IMG/VR virus record: IMGVR_UViG_3300025118_000122 | Span: 1-25,844 of that record | DNA from: a virus | Length of the DNA stretch: 25,844 nucleotides | Reading direction: 5' to 3' (one strand) | Part shown: positions 4,813 through 22,346 of the stretch, in pieces | Position numbering within the stretch: the stretch's first letter is position 1 | How the letters are laid out: every line of letters begins with the position of its first letter | The notes under the pieces: generated by a model | The model's database searches: none | Told to the model about the DNA's origin: nothing | What the model saw: the letters and a program-made list of their open reading frames with translations, nothing else | Program-made: the position numbers and the translations under genes

Positions 4813-6465
4813 TTAAGTAAACGCTCCTCCGTCGTAAGTAGTTGTTACTGTTGCATGACTTGATGTTAAGGTCCAATCACCTCCATCAATAACTGGCAAC
4901 GCAGTTCTATCAAAAGCAGTGTTAGTCTGTACTCCGTTACCTTCGTGAGCTTGTTCAACACACATATAATGTAGTACAGTAGGTAGAGTATCTGTTGTAA
5001 CAATTTGGGTATAAGCTCCACCAGAGCCAGGTGTACCATTAAGAGTTACTCCAGTTGTATATAATGTAGTTTTATCTGCTTCTTCATAAAACTTTAATGT
5101 ATGACTAGCGTTTGATGAATCAGATTGATCAAACCTATAAGTTATACCAGGAGTCCATTCTAAGAAAGGAGCCTGTTCACCATCAATAAGGAATCCATTG
5201 CTAGATCCTGTGCCATTATATCTATGGAAACTATTCTTCGTAGCTACTTTAACTGTATATGTTACACCTGGTGTACCAGTTTTAAATGGTCTAGGGTTAG
5301 GTAAATACCTATCCTCAGGATCATTAGCAAAGTAACTCATATAGGCAAATGTAGCTCCCGAATGGGTATATTGTAATCTTACAGTAAGACCTGCAGCACC
5401 TTGGAAGCTTGCTGGAAGACTTGTTAATTTAGGTGAAGTACCTGCGTTGTAAGCTTCAAGACCTGTTGAATTTGCAATTTCAATATAATCATCTTCTGTA
5501 TATGTAGCAGCTGCCCATGCAGCTACAGTAGCTTTAGAAGTATAAAGTACAGCTGCAGATACAGCAGCACTTGCAGCATTAGCAGTTACAACAGCTGCTT
5601 CTGCCTGAGTAACCGCATAACCTACACCCTTAGGATCAGTTGATGCGTCTGTATTATTACCTTTTAATGTCCATGATGAACCACCATCAGCAGTTATAGC
5701 TACGCATCTGTCAGTTGCTAACTTTGCAGTATCAGCAATTGTATCAGCAGCATTAGCCGTGCTGACAGCTGCAGAAGCATTAGTTGAGGCTGTGTTTGCC
5801 GTACTAACTGCTGCTGTAGCGTTTGATGCGGCTGTATTAGCTGTGCTTACTGCTGCCGTAGCATTAGTAGCTGCTGTGTTAGCTGTACTAACTGCAGCTG
5901 TAGCGTTTGTCGAAGCTGTGTTCGCAGTGCTAACAGCATTTGTCGCGTTTGTAGACGCTGTGTTTGCTGTACTCACTGCGTTAGATGCATTCGTACTTGC
6001 AGTATTAGCAGTACTTACAGCTGCAGCAGCTTTTGTAATAGCAGCAACGTAACTCCCGCTTTCAAGAACCCTAGAGTTAGTAAGAGCATCACTAGAGTCG
6101 TTTTCTGCTTCTTGAGTAACGTATAAATTTTGTGTATAGTTGTCATTTAGATCACTGGATCTAATAGCAGAACCTGGGTAGAAGGTTGCAGTTAGTGCAG
6201 TACTAGCTGTATCCCTATATACTCTGCCAGTTACTCCACTTTTAGGAGCACCTGATGTTTCCTGCCAGTTAGTACCACTACCTGACGAAAGGGAAATTGT
6301 TGTAGCATTGGCGTATGTAAATTTTGTATTGTCTAATGTAGTACTACCATGAGTGGAATGGATAAGTTCTACTTTCAAGTCTGATTGTTTTATATAAGGG
6401 AATGTAAATGCGAAGTCAGTTTTACTTCCATTTATCCCTGCCATAGTATTTGAGGTTGTAGCCAT
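4813..6465 (-). CDS. T7 gp17-like tail fibre protein
   Basis: Residues 1-125 match the T7 tail fibre N-terminal, tail-attaching domain: INGSKTDFAFTFPYIKQSDL, FYPGSAIRSSDLNDNY, LYVTQEAEND. Residues 149-246 form a tandem array of 14-residue repeats with consensus AVSTANTASTNATA (listed separately), equal to two heptads per unit and suited to a trimeric coiled-coil shaft. Residues about 404-513 form a compact beta domain with an ASHTLKF motif and an LHYMCVEQAH motif. This domain resembles a cupredoxin-like module common in marine phage proteins. At 550 aa it is nearly the length of T7 gp17 (553 aa), but only the N-terminal domain is recognisably shared. It lies directly after the gp16-like gene, as in T7. 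The ribosome site before the ATG is weak. Confidence 0.9.
   Translation of the reverse strand: MATTSNTMAGINGSKTDFAFTFPYIKQSDLKVELIHSTHGSTTLDNTKFTYANATTISLSSGSGTNWQETSGAPKSGVTGRVYRDTASTALTATFYPGSAIRSSDLNDNYTQNLYVTQEAENDSSDALTNSRVLESGSYVAAITKAAAAVSTANTASTNASNAVSTANTASTNATNAVSTANTASTNATAAVSTANTAATNATAAVSTANTAASNATAAVSTANTASTNASAAVSTANAADTIADTAKLATDRCVAITADGGSSWTLKGNNTDASTDPKGVGYAVTQAEAAVVTANAASAAVSAAVLYTSKATVAAWAAATYTEDDYIEIANSTGLEAYNAGTSPKLTSLPASFQGAAGLTVRLQYTHSGATFAYMSYFANDPEDRYLPNPRPFKTGTPGVTYTVKVATKNSFHRYNGTGSSNGFLIDGEQAPFLEWTPGITYRFDQSDSSNASHTLKFYEEADKTTLYTTGVTLNGTPGSGGAYTQIVTTDTLPTVLHYMCVEQAHEGNGVQTNTAFDRTALPVIDGGDWTLTSSHATVTTTYDGGAFT
5728..6021 (-). repeat. Tandem 42-bp / 14-residue repeat in the fibre shaft, six full units plus one degenerate
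   Basis: Inside the tail fibre gene the 14-residue unit AVSTANTASTNATA recurs six times without interruption and decays in a seventh copy (AVSTANAADTIADT). The protein copies are almost identical, while the DNA copies differ at many third codon positions: Ala, Val, Ser, Thr and Asn codons are swapped from unit to unit. Fourteen residues equal two heptads, fitting a coiled-coil rod. Confidence 0.95.
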
Positions 6466-18981: not shown

Positions 18982-19995
18982 TCAAGCAGTTTGTATTTCA
19001 ATTGCAGCAGCAGGGTTTAGAGTACCTACACCCATAGCCAACCTTCCAACGATCAAGTCGCCTTGATACATTGTCTTAATGTCAGCTCCGGTTGTTTGTA
19101 CCTGAGGTCCAATTGCTTCTACAATTCCAGCTGCATCCTTCTGGTATATAAGTCCAGCATGATCAGCGAAAGCACCTGAATAATCGTTGTTTTCACCAAC
19201 CTGTGCATTAACTGTACCAGCTTGGAAAGGCAGGTTGTTAGAACGCTTGATGTCGATACCAGCAATAGATACTAGTCCGTCTCCAGAGTTCAAGTTACCT
19301 TGGGTATTACCGTAGTCACGGTTTAGAATATTCGAATCAACCTGAGAAACGAGAGCGTAGTACTGGCGAGGTGCTAGTACAGCTGTGCGTCCTGTCTTAG
19401 GAAGGTTCTTCTCATCGAGAATTGAAGCGGCTTCAAAGAAGGCATCAACTAATTTCTGAGCATCATATTCATTGTTAGAACCAATCTTGATGATTGAACC
19501 ACCTGGTTCTGGACCTGGTGATGCAGTGATTGGATGGGCTTCACGAGCTGCTAGAGCAATGGTACGGAATACCTTTTTGTCATATGCTTCAGCTAGAGCG
19601 TGGCCAATTTTCTTAGAGATCTCACTTCTTAGAGAGTAGTGAGCGAGTGTTTCATCGAGGTCGTATACGAAAGCGGAGCTTATGAGAAGGTCGTCACAGA
19701 CGATGGTCTTCTCTGCTACTGGAGGATCACCCGATCCGAGGATGGGTTCGCCAGGAGTATGATAAGCTGCTTGCATACGGCCAGTGAAGATGAACTGTAG
19801 ACTCTTACCGTTCTTTAGTTGACGGTTTTGTACAGTTCCTTTTGCTATCGTTGCTGACTCATAAGCTTTGAAAAGCTCACCTGAGAACAGCTTTAGATAG
19901 GTTGCGTATTTGGTATCATAAGCAGTACCAAGGGCCAAAGGAGTTTGGCTGGTATTGTTAATACTACCAATACTAGATACAACAGTATTTGCCAT
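18982..19995 (-). CDS. Major capsid protein, T7 gp10-like
   Basis: The 337-aa product (T7 gp10A is 345 aa) shows the T7-type HK97-fold capsid pattern. The N-terminus has LKLFSGELFKAYESATIAKG. Next come LKNGKSLQFIFTGRMQAAYH and TPGEPILG (the 'GkS.qF...Gr..A.yhtpGe' region), then VCDDLLISSAFVYDLDETLA and a C-terminal VGRLAMGVGTLNPAAAIEI. Phe is encoded by TTC throughout the first third, and many codons end in C, in contrast to the A/T-ending codons of the tail genes. This fits strong translational selection on the most abundant product. No frameshift signal like that producing T7 gp10B is obvious at the end. The start has no strong ribosome site. Confidence 0.95.
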   Translation of the reverse strand: MANTVVSSIGSINNTSQTPLALGTAYDTKYATYLKLFSGELFKAYESATIAKGTVQNRQLKNGKSLQFIFTGRMQAAYHTPGEPILGSGDPPVAEKTIVCDDLLISSAFVYDLDETLAHYSLRSEISKKIGHALAEAYDKKVFRTIALAAREAHPITASPGPEPGGSIIKIGSNNEYDAQKLVDAFFEAASILDEKNLPKTGRTAVLAPRQYYALVSQVDSNILNRDYGNTQGNLNSGDGLVSIAGIDIKRSNNLPFQAGTVNAQVGENNDYSGAFADHAGLIYQKDAAGIVEAIGPQVQTTGADIKTMYQGDLIVGRLAMGVGTLNPAAAIEIQTA

Positions 19996-20176: not shown

Positions 20177-20653
20177 TTAGAACTTCTGATATTCAAGATA
20201 AGAACCACGTAATACAGTAGTACTTGTTCCGCCAGCTCTCATACAGAACTGGAAGTCAAGGTCTCCCGCATTAGCGCCGTTATCAAGTACACCCTGTACA
20301 ACGAGCAAACCATTTGTTGCTGAAGTTGTAAGAGATTGCGCAGCTTCTGCTACGATAGGAGCTTGTCCTATAGCAGTAGTTGAACCATCGGAACCAGATG
20401 TTACTGTCAAAAACTTAGTAGGTGATGCAGGGATATCAACGATATATTCAATATCTGCTGTAGCATCCCACAAACAGAATAGATTATAACGAAATACTAA
20501 TCTCTCATACTTTCCTATTGGAAGTTTAAGTTCAGTAATGCTAGCTAAAGTTTCAGTAGCATTAACCTGATCGTTAGGTAGAATCAAACCAGAGCTAAGA
20601 AAGCCTGGTGTATATACAACTGTACCAGCAGCTGTGTTTGAATTAAAAGGCAT
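20177..20653 (-). CDS. Putative decoration / beta-sandwich virion protein (158 aa)
   Basis: The 158-aa product is almost all beta-strand pattern with Thr, Ala and Gly loops. It has no signal peptide or membrane span. Notable parts are ELKLPIGKYERLVFRYNLFC, ADIEYIVDIPAS and the terminal RGSYLEYQKF preceded by AGDLDFQFCMRAGGTSTTVL. The pattern 'NGANAG.l.fqf....ggTSTTVLrGSYLEy' recalls small structural proteins I have seen in marine phages. Located just before the capsid gene, it is plausibly a head decoration or fibre protein. There is no recognisable Shine-Dalgarno before the ATG, and it is separated from the previous gene by 88 bases. Family unknown. Confidence 0.7.
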   Translation of the reverse strand: MPFNSNTAAGTVVYTPGFLSSGLILPNDQVNATETLASITELKLPIGKYERLVFRYNLFCLWDATADIEYIVDIPASPTKFLTVTSGSDGSTTAIGQAPIVAEAAQSLTTSATNGLLVVQGVLDNGANAGDLDFQFCMRAGGTSTTVLRGSYLEYQKF

Positions 20654-20741: not shown

Positions 20742-21113
20742 TTAGAATTTATACTTTACTCCGACTTTGGTTCCCCATGAATTATCATCATCGGTATCCT
20801 TATCAGCAGTGAGTAATGCGACTTCTCCATATACATCTACCTTAGTAGTAGCTGCAAAAGATCCGCCAACTTTACCAGATACTCTGGTATCAGAATCAGC
20901 TGTGCCATCTACTGATACAACAGCGGGACCGCCTTGTATATAGAATGACGCTGTATCTGTTCCACCTTCATATCCAACATGGACATCGGTGGTAGTGCCG
21001 GTGTAGTTTGACCCGGTGAGAGCGGAGTTTGCTTCCACATTCAAATATACTCCAGCAGATGCAGGAGTCGCCAGGGCTGTTGAAGCCAGTACGGCTAGTG
21101 CAATAGTTTTCAT
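20742..21113 (-). CDS. Secreted small outer-membrane barrel-like protein
   Basis: A 123-aa protein with a textbook signal peptide. It has a short basic start (MKT), the hydrophobic core IALAVLASTALA and a TPASA site, so signal peptidase I would cut after Ala20. The mature 103 residues show alternating-polarity strands (VYLNVEANS, TTTDVHVGYEG, ASFYIQGGPAVVS, VDVYGEVALLTA, TKVGVKYKF) joined by Gly/Asp/Thr turns, and end in Phe. Terminal Phe with aromatic or hydrophobic residues at alternate positions is the usual signal for the barrel assembly machinery. I infer a small six- or eight-stranded outer-membrane barrel exported to the host envelope. It lies among head genes, between scaffold and capsid. 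From memory, short signal-peptide proteins like this recur in marine cyanophages without assigned function. Alternatives are a soluble periplasmic beta protein or an immunity factor. Confidence 0.8.
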   Translation of the reverse strand: MKTIALAVLASTALATPASAGVYLNVEANSALTGSNYTGTTTDVHVGYEGGTDTASFYIQGGPAVVSVDGTADSDTRVSGKVGGSFAATTKVDVYGEVALLTADKDTDDDNSWGTKVGVKYKF

Positions 21114-21298
21114 TGTTAAAAGTTACTTTGTTTTGGTATAAGGGATACCGCGATACTTTAGTTGGACTTTCATTAGTCTTCTCCATAGTAACAACCCCCC
21201 GTTCCATGAGTTGTTTTCATGCAAAGCACGTTAATGCCCCGAACGGACGCGGACCCTGTTGGCTTCTACTGCTTCGACAAGCGAGCCGCCACTGTATA
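21114..21298 (-). other. Non-coding leader of the barrel gene, about 185 bases
   Basis: The longest intergenic stretch of the window. It is less A+T-rich than the others and contains a GGTAT/ATACC stem with five-base loop shortly before the barrel gene start. It also has an AACAAC/GTTGTT inverted repeat enclosing a run of six G on the minus strand. No strong Shine-Dalgarno precedes the barrel start. A 79-codon frame crosses it and runs into the barrel gene in another frame, but I do not accept it as a gene. A promoter or structured untranslated leader is the likeliest content. Confidence 0.4.
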
Positions 21299-21499
21299 TT
21301 AAGTTGCTACTGTTTCAGCACCACAGTCAGAACCATCAGTTGTTGTACCAACCATTGCTTTACACTGTGCTAGTTGCGCTGCTGCAGTTGCGTTGTCATT
21401 GTAAGGAATGAACCAACGATCACCTGTAGTATTAACTACATAGTGTACTTGGAAGTCATTAGCCCGTGACGCAGGCTTTGGATTGTAAATGATACTCAT
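21299..21499 (-). CDS. Small unknown protein after the basic microprotein (66 aa)
   Basis: The 66-aa product starts MSIIYNPKPASRANDFQVHY and continues with GDRWFIPYNDNATAAAQLAQ, then a Thr/Gly-rich tail with two cysteines. Its ATG overlaps the stop of the 23-aa microprotein (ATGA), and AAGGA lies about eleven bases before it. No membrane segment or signal is visible. I do not recognise the family. Its place in the scaffold-initiated chain of coupled genes suggests expression with head assembly proteins. Confidence 0.7.
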   Translation of the reverse strand: MSIIYNPKPASRANDFQVHYVVNTTGDRWFIPYNDNATAAAQLAQCKAMVGTTTDGSDCGAETVAT

Positions 21500-21567
21500 T
21501 TCTTTTTTGTTCCTTTTTTAGGGGGTCTCCCGACTTGAGACCCATAAGTTCCTTTTCCTTTTGGCAT
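21496..21567 (-). CDS. 23-aa strongly basic microprotein between scaffold and the 66-aa gene
   Basis: The frame starts on an ATG that overlaps the scaffold stop (TAATG) and ends in a TGA that overlaps the next ATG (ATGA), so the gene fills the gap exactly. The product begins MPKGKGTYGSQVGRPP and ends KKGTKKK: seven Lys and one Arg in 23 residues, with no acidic residue. I recall closely similar Lys-rich micro-ORFs near head genes of marine cyanophages, but cannot verify this here. A nucleic-acid- or scaffold-binding role is plausible because of the charge; this is inference. Confidence 0.7.
   Translation of the reverse strand: MPKGKGTYGSQVGRPPKKGTKKK
21523..21543 (-). other. 7-bp hairpin inside the microprotein gene
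   Basis: GGGTCTC and GAGACCC form a perfect seven-base stem with a seven-base loop. On the minus strand it is followed by an A-rich, not T-rich, run, so it is not a terminator. It could be an RNA processing site or could slow ribosomes before the 66-aa gene. Confidence 0.5.
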
Positions 21568-22346
21568 TAGAATTGTAAGTTAGATCGTTCTAGTTTATCG
21601 TAAATGTCCTGACGATAAGCAGGGTCTTTCTCATATCTACTATCACTCATAGCTTTCACTACTTCGGCTTGGCTACGGAACAAGGCGCCTTCAGATTTAG
21701 CTGCTTTACCTGTAAGCATTTCTCCATCAACTCCTTTGGCATCAGTATATCTATAAGCTAAGGCTTGTACTGCAAAATAAGCAGCAAGAGGGTTACCTTG
21801 ATCCATGACATTGTCATACATCTTCACCTCGTTTTCAGTAAGATTCTGGCCAGCCCACTGCATCATATCATTATAACCTTTCTCACCACCAACAACTCCT
21901 TTCAGTTGTCCGACGTGTGCTTCAGATAAGCCTTCTGATTCAGGAGTGTCAACTCGTTCTGATCTATCCTTAAGATACATCTGTGCGATTTCTCTGGAGT
22001 CCATACCAGCGAGTTGCTTAAGAGTTTCTTCTTTATATTCACCTCCTTTAGCTTCTTCCCAAAGAGTATTTAAGAAAGTAGTGTCAACTTTATCTTCCTT
22101 TTCTTCTTCCTTTTCTTCTTTAGCTTCAGGTTTCTCTTCAGGTTCAGCAGTCTCTTCGTTAGGTGCACCAAGTTTCTTTTGTAACTCAATGTAACCTTGC
22201 TCTAAGTCTTCTGCATCTTTAAATTTACCAGCTAATAATTGATTCTGTTGTTCAGCTAATTGTTCTCCAACGGCTAGAGCTTCTTGCTCTTCTGCATTTA
22301 GTTCACCTTCAGCCTGTTCATTAGGGTTGTACGTTAGTGTTGCCAT
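21567..22346 (-). CDS. Capsid scaffolding protein, T7 gp9-like
   Basis: The 259-aa product lies between portal and capsid, where T7 encodes gp9 (307 aa). It is strongly acidic and helical. Residues 39-60 (AGKFKDAEDLEQGYIELQKK) carry the 'GKfk..eDLe..y.ELqkklg' pattern of podoviral scaffolds. Residues 62-87 are a Glu/Lys/Pro low-complexity linker. The C-terminal part after about 110 is helical and ends in DPAYRQDIYDKLERSNLQF, plausibly the capsid-binding end. The start lies inside the end of the 81-aa gene, with no strong ribosome site of its own, so translation is probably coupled. Confidence 0.88.
   Translation of the reverse strand: MATLTYNPNEQAEGELNAEEQEALAVGEQLAEQQNQLLAGKFKDAEDLEQGYIELQKKLGAPNEETAEPEEKPEAKEEKEEEKEDKVDTTFLNTLWEEAKGGEYKEETLKQLAGMDSREIAQMYLKDRSERVDTPESEGLSEAHVGQLKGVVGGEKGYNDMMQWAGQNLTENEVKMYDNVMDQGNPLAAYFAVQALAYRYTDAKGVDGEMLTGKAAKSEGALFRSQAEVVKAMSDSRYEKDPAYRQDIYDKLERSNLQF

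Follow-up and report, generated by a model that had tools for sequence, protein, structure and literature searches.

Marine cyanophages encode a small protein family that is already catalogued as Phage_OMP (PF24653; Pfam title 'Cyanophage outer membrane protein like beta barrel domain'), also labelled PhCOG173, T4-GC 241 and gp222-like. The family has been suggested to respond to phosphate limitation, and the S-TIM4 copy was lost repeatedly, through frameshifts, nonsense mutations and deletions, during passage of the phage through Synechococcus WH8102 cultures in replete medium (PMC6224464). The RNA motif RF01704 (glutamine-II riboswitch, downstream-peptide motif) has been described ahead of short cyanobacterial open reading frames (ORFs), and such elements reportedly reduce expression when nitrogen is depleted (PMC2864571). 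Here we analysed the whole of a 25.8-kb virus record (IMGVR_UViG_3300025118_000122 of IMG/VR; hereafter, the window), in which a PF24653 gene (hereafter, the barrel gene) directly follows a glutamine-II riboswitch aptamer and a short peptide ORF, between the genes for scaffold and major capsid protein.

By its sequence, the protein is a member of the catalogued family and nothing in it differs from PF24653. Its regulation, through the order riboswitch, peptide, barrel gene, appears to be undescribed within the literature searched. Our leading, still tentative, reading is that the protein is a nutrient-conditional accessory of the infected host's outer membrane, most plausibly aiding phosphate entry. 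The capsid protein shares 80-83% identity with its counterparts in the cyanopodoviruses DSL-LC07, S-SRP01, NATL1A-7 and S-CBP1/3/4, and the source phage is therefore a T7-like cyanophage.

A predicted outer-membrane protein of the PF24653 family

The gene is a 123-amino-acid ORF that runs in the same direction as the adjoining structural genes. An earlier note on this DNA, made from the letters alone, had drawn the ORF at exactly these coordinates, without its strand, and had called the product a barrel-like outer-membrane protein encoded among head genes. It overlooked the PF24653 membership, the link of relatives to phosphate limitation, the loss in experimental evolution, and the riboswitch with its peptide ORF. 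The parts of the gene are as follows.

20742..21113, minus strand: Phage_OMP gene, 123 amino acids, predicted secreted outer-membrane-barrel-like protein (PF24653, E = 1.1e-41; phrog_417, 4.3e-38; purifying selection)
21054..21113, minus strand: predicted Sec-type signal peptide MKTIALAVLASTALATPASA, residues 1-20 (family-wide n-region charge and (-3,-1) rule)
20745..21053, minus strand: mature part, residues 21-123, six predicted beta strands (AlphaFold2 pLDDT 93.0, pTM 0.76)
20745..20768, minus strand: C-terminal beta-signal KVGVKYKF, predicted to serve outer-membrane insertion (pattern in 154 of 160 members)

The Phage_OMP match is full length (142.3 bits against a cut-off of 27; positions 2-122 of the 122-position profile), and the protein shares its signal peptide, strand pattern and C-terminal phenylalanine with that family; phrog_417 is a family of unknown function. 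The score for the OMP_b-brl family PF13505 was 20.5 bits, below its cut-off of 28.7, and a defence-system search gave no match. The barrel gene is under purifying selection (median dN/dS 0.10, maximum 0.23, in 64 pairs).

The signal peptide with a TPASA site, read from the letters by the earlier note, was borne out across the family. Cleavage is predicted between ATPASA and GVY; lysine or arginine occurs at positions 2-6 in all 158 family members with an N-terminal extension, and 157 of these obey the (-3,-1) rule in a rule-based assessment. The C-terminal phenylalanine, taken by the same note as an outer-membrane signal, is part of a wider pattern (polar-x-Gly-x-x-hydrophobic/aromatic-x-aromatic) that the window C-terminus fits and that is rare, at 31 of 2255, among other ORFs of the same loci. 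The alternating beta pattern was likewise upheld, exceeding chance when residues were shuffled among strand positions (p about 1e-4). With faces assigned by inspection, 11 of 31 residues on the inward (polar) face are charged, as against none of 35 on the outward face, and the polar face is the more conserved (mean column entropy 0.90 bits, compared with 1.63 bits for the other).

AlphaFold2, run with 64 sequences, predicted six strands (residues 2-13, 16-31, 35-48, 54-67, 72-81 and 92-101 of the model) and no helix. The earlier note had named a compact soluble fold in advance as the outcome that would count against it, and the model did not give that outcome. The leading Foldseek matches in PDB were mostly outer-membrane barrels (OmpA, OprF, OmpX, NspA, Ail and OmpG). 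Small barrels of the OmpA/OmpX/NspA/Ail type (OMP_b-brl, PF13505) are the best structure matches and share with the window protein the inside-out barrel pattern, a charged, filled interior, the beta-signal and periplasmic ends, but they have eight strands rather than six. The proposed outer-membrane-protein architecture is thus supported by the structure model, the strand alternation, the structure matches, the export and beta-signals and the charges of the two faces. A second model, of a distant paralogue type (L199, which is close to P-SSM2 gene 247), also has six strands (pLDDT 91.6). The best fits of this second model are to wider barrels (OmpG, TMq 0.72; a designed ten-strand barrel, 0.64), a mild point in favour of an open arc and of oligomers.

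A riboswitch and peptide leader ahead of the barrel gene

Two elements, on the same strand as the barrel gene, make up its leader.

21190..21248, minus strand: glutamine-II riboswitch aptamer (RF01704, downstream-peptide motif; 38.2 bits against a gathering threshold of 33, E = 1.4e-7)
21123..21173, minus strand: downstream peptide ORF MKVQLKYRGIPYTKTK, 16 codons, YRG type, with a GGAG ribosome site just upstream

In relatives the Rfam model scored 37.7-60.2 bits. Across 14 aligned copies, 10 of the 12 helix pairs have compensatory changes on both sides and 99.3% of cells are paired, and the pairing signal was destroyed in a control in which the partners were slid. Minimum-free-energy folding of the leader, computed without the pseudoknot, showed no excess stability (z -0.5). 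In sequence, in its two covarying helices and in the short conserved peptide ORF behind them, the leader is the same as known RF01704 systems; here, however, a gene for a predicted phage outer-membrane protein is the second cistron, for which we found no description in the literature searched. The window riboswitch probably binds glutamine and changes expression with it, which would put the barrel gene under nitrogen-state control.

The stop codon of the peptide ORF lies 9 nucleotides before the ATG of the barrel gene. A covariance model built from the riboswitch copies was used to find linked loci, and 47 loci have the riboswitch 65-124 nucleotides before the barrel gene, with a YRG peptide of 14-35 codons between them in 45. 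The riboswitch stands 69-124 nucleotides before the barrel gene in all 21 complete scaffold-capsid intervals of the window's clade (defined below), where the YRG peptide has 16-35 codons, and the same order occurs in cultured NATL1A-7 and 9515-10a. A strong Shine-Dalgarno sequence precedes 24 of 29 peptide starts and none of 32 barrel starts, which is suggestive of barrel synthesis being translationally coupled to that of the peptide. A longer relative of the peptide has a weak DUF4278-like match (0.0057, below the cut-off).

A further 68 loci carry the riboswitch without a link to the barrel gene. P-SSP7 (L174:5023-5081) and many other cyanopodoviruses have the same riboswitch about 220-900 nucleotides before the capsid gene and not before a barrel gene. 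The leader belongs to the podovirus clade of the window and was not found in the myovirus-type loci searched. Relatives whose barrel genes are as far apart as dS about 1 or more still have almost the same leader DNA (riboswitch and peptide), which suggests strong constraint or recombination at the border of the scaffold-capsid interval.

Phosphate-related neighbours of the family

Elsewhere in the family the genomic context is related to phosphate. P-SSM2 genes 246 and 247, both PF24653, lie directly before pstS, as do two tandem PF24653 copies in S-SCSM1. Environmental cyanophage pstS loci with 1.5 kb or more of upstream sequence numbered 42, and 19 of these have a barrel gene 5-821 nucleotides upstream of pstS on the same strand (limit 0.9 kb; P-SSM2 and L061 excluded; the loci are not independent). 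A pho-box-like repeat pair, CTTAACCTTCTCTTAGTTT, precedes the P-SSM2 and L199 copies. The gene that S-TIM4 loses on passage, ORF224, is also a PF24653 member. The phosphorus-induced gene S-PM2d169, of similar size, was considered and is not of this family.

In myoviruses, two diverged copies stand in tandem before pstS (L061:5040-5339 and 5601-5894; L090 and L420). The inward strands of the gene-247-like copy look rich in lysine, a feature of possible relevance to anion selectivity.

Exchangeable cargo between the scaffold and capsid genes

In family searches, the genes upstream of the barrel gene were identified as portal and scaffold, and those downstream as major capsid protein and tail tube, in agreement with the position among head genes given in the earlier note. 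The scaffold-capsid interval (hereafter, the slot) of the window has the following borders and further genes.

21567..22346, minus strand: scaffold protein, one border of the slot (Phage_T7_Capsid, 1.9e-6; phrog_1052, 1.6e-53)
18982..19995, minus strand: major capsid protein, the other border (Gp10A-like, 3e-79)
21299..21499, minus strand: slot gene of 66 amino acids and unassigned function, in many slots of the same clade (no family match)
20177..20653, minus strand: slot gene of 158 amino acids between the barrel and capsid genes (no family match)

The 158-amino-acid gene is shared with environmental relatives and, among phage records, was matched only in NATL1A-7 (34% identity over 61%, E = 7e-3); it is possibly further cargo or a head decoration.

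The idea that this interval serves as a cargo slot proved right: in related phages it carries hli, psbA, the barrel gene or a gene for an RlpA-like lytic transglycosylase (PF03330, 1.8e-21). The slots of cultured S-SBP1, S-RIP2, 9515-10a and NATL1A-7 hold hli, psbA and a PF24653 gene. That of P-SSP7 holds hli and psbA only, and those of DSL-LC07 and S-CBP1 hold RlpA with hli and psbA. Environmental slot loci were chosen by capsid sequence and not by the barrel gene, with the window's clade defined by capsids at least 85% identical and its sister clade by capsids below 85%. In the window's clade, the barrel gene is in 21 of 21 complete slots (psbA in 8, hli in 9); in the sister clade it is in none of 19 slots, all of which have RlpA (psbA in 8).

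After near-identical slots were removed, three capsid lineages provided 84 slots, 42 with the barrel gene only, 20 with RlpA only, 2 with both and 20 with neither, so that the two genes largely exclude each other (Fisher p = 1.5e-6 when kinship among slots is ignored). The presence of psbA is independent of that of the barrel gene (Fisher p = 0.66), and a functional pairing of the two was rejected on these grounds. From these counts, the slot usually has one envelope-directed gene, and photosynthesis genes are gained and lost without regard to it. On our reading, the barrel gene is accessory cargo of the slot, not a head protein. The exchange with RlpA appears to be undescribed within the literature searched.

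The RlpA-like PF03330 gene is found in the sister-clade slots L145-L173, and also at L176:3775-4068 and L177:3532-3825. An RlpA-like ORF is present but unannotated in S-CBP1 and in some records of S-CBP3 and S-CBP4.

Distribution and annotation of the family

A tblastn search found a PF24653-type protein encoded in 469 phage records, named for Synechococcus (n = 356), 'Cyanophage' (n = 74), Prochlorococcus (n = 28), 'Marine' (n = 8) or uncultured phages (n = 3); all but the last 11 are thus cyanophages by name. The phage records nearest to the window protein are cyanopodoviruses. Among the matches listed, most are annotated 'hypothetical protein', 'gp222' or 'DUF680'. The DUF680-named proteins P-SSM2 246 and 247, S-TIM4 ORF224 and S-SZBM1_90 all match PF24653, and Pfam scans of these proteins turned up no family of that DUF name; the DUF680 label in GenBank cyanophage records is therefore probably a misannotation.

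A pattern scan, of a kind that distant relatives can escape, was run over 84,980 bacterial and archaeal genomes and found only five relatives. Four of these (L092-L094 and L096) sit among cyanophage genes and the fifth (L095) is a short contig of a metagenome-assembled genome without neighbour evidence, so a host origin of the gene was rejected, within the reach of the pattern and with L095 uninformative. One of the four, L092 (NZ_RMVE01000006.1), is a 188-kb contig filed as Nonlabens xiamenensis with cyanomyovirus gene order around the barrel gene, and is probably a phage genome within a bacterial assembly.

In the annotated S-RIP2 gene (170 amino acids; L086:3782-4294) and in a frame of L067 (4822-5340), a small conserved peptide, YANIHAKRxRIxxGSGExMRKPGSKGAPTAAxFKRSAKTAKK, is fused in frame to the signal peptide of the barrel protein. 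Elsewhere this peptide is a separate ORF, and the S-RIP2 start may therefore be misannotated.

Proposed role and alternatives

As an accessory of the host outer membrane under nutrient control, the protein would be made and act as follows. Ribosomes would load at the GGAG site of the YRG peptide, with the glutamine state tuning the loading. The barrel gene, as a second cistron without a ribosome site of its own, would be translated by coupling to the peptide and so would track the glutamine (nitrogen) state of the cell. The product would leave the cytoplasm through Sec, and the BAM machinery of the infected picocyanobacterium would set it into the outer membrane, either as a six-stranded barrel or as an oligomeric barrel with six strands per chain. 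There it would change the permeability or the surface of the outer membrane while the cell makes phage, and would help phosphate entry in cells that have enough nitrogen but are limited by phosphorus. Phosphate entry is our first, still tentative, choice of role because of the nutrient links, i.e., the riboswitch and the pstS neighbours.

Several observations weigh against this proposal. The outer-membrane location is itself predicted, from features of the sequence and the model. To our knowledge, single-chain outer-membrane barrels never have fewer than eight strands, so a single chain of six may not close, and the protein would therefore be either an unusually small barrel or one of several chains that share one. 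No Foldseek match in PDB reached E ≤ 0.001. Covariation for barrel closure is ambiguous: most of the hairpin ladders have good scores (z up to 3.6), whereas the pairing of strands 1 and 6 has z 1.8, below the unrelated pair 1-5 (z 3.2). The charged residues that pack the inward face speak against a single chain forming an open pore. On the side of regulation, barrel copies that are not linked to the riboswitch also mostly lack a Shine-Dalgarno sequence, and the evidence for coupling is therefore suggestive only. In 50 other loci, many of them from podoviruses, the riboswitch follows the barrel gene instead of preceding it and is close to the capsid gene. No pho box was found before the window gene (21114-21298 scanned) and pho boxes are not enriched in podovirus copies; direct PhoB control of the window gene was rejected for these reasons. 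A PF24653 relative was detected in purified S-SZBM1 particles, and a block on superinfection, an aid to lysis and a part of the virion are each possible functions. The interpretation in the earlier note thus stands in its outer-membrane architecture and in its cargo slot with psbA and hli, and falters at the number of strands per chain, fewer than in any known single-chain barrel.

A protein on the cell surface could instead hide or change the receptor that the phage uses, thereby excluding superinfecting phages or stopping progeny from binding to debris. Phage-encoded outer-membrane or surface proteins for superinfection exclusion would act from the same place, by analogy and with no sequence relation shown. 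The exported surface-protein architecture, the conserved acidic outer loops (DDDN) and the restriction of the family to phages of marine picocyanobacteria all fit, as does the loss under selection in one host only (PMC6224464), which is expected if the surface partner differs between hosts. The loops of the family are conserved, however, and not diversified, and neither nutrient-linked regulation nor the linkage to pstS is predicted by receptor masking, which we consider unlikely. Weakening of the outer membrane for lysis, as the outer-layer counterpart of a cell-wall enzyme, draws its main point from the slot, where the RlpA-like lytic transglycosylase largely replaces the barrel gene (with the kinship caveat given above) and both products look secreted and envelope-directed. 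Yet 20 of the 84 slots carry neither gene, the replacement tracks phage lineage in the two sister clades so that host type may explain it, the S-SZBM1 genome has both families, and S-TIM4 tolerates the loss of its copy; a lysis aid is thus a distinctly unlikely function.

Phage preparations are often contaminated by outer-membrane fragments, which bears on whether the protein is a minor component of the virion. The main point for such a role is S-SZBM1_90, a PF24653 member (8.1e-33) found in particles purified on CsCl; it was covered to 25.4% by 2 peptides and had an emPAI of 1.06, compared with 27.64 for the capsid protein (PMC9146016). A virion location had also been named in advance as counting against an envelope protein, and the record on it is divided, with another relative classed as not particle-associated (PMC6224464). 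The window gene does lie among head genes, but in a slot that carries cargo rather than head parts, and a signal peptide and beta-signal are ill-suited to cytoplasmic assembly, so that we regard a virion role as a slim prospect. Cyanobacterial Sec signals serve the thylakoid lumen too, and a soluble exported beta protein of the lumen or the periplasm would account for the presence of only six strands and for the frequent position beside psbA in podoviruses. The uncharged, hydrophobic outer face, the conserved polar inner face, the beta-signal and the structure matches mostly to outer-membrane barrels all point away from a soluble protein, as does the independence of psbA and the barrel gene in the slot, and we find it improbable.

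A bolder form of the nutrient proposal, which we offer as a long shot, is that two or more six-strand chains form one outer-membrane pore, which would make this the smallest such phage subunit known. Nitrogen state would control synthesis of the protein in podoviruses, through the glutamine-II riboswitch; in some myoviruses phosphorus state would do so, through the pho box and the pstS neighbour, so that unrelated phages would open the host outer membrane to phosphate under phosphorus limitation.

The family is present in hundreds of sequenced cyanophages from two unrelated phage families, mostly annotated as hypothetical or DUF proteins. It is now tied, by predicted architecture and by genomic context, to the host outer membrane, to one genome slot and to one regulatory switch, and its role can be tested in cultured NATL1A-7 and 9515-10a. 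If the nutrient-conditional role is true, phages of the most abundant photosynthetic organisms would adjust how permeable the host outer membrane is to the prevailing supply of nitrogen and phosphorus, making it more or less permeable as that supply changes.
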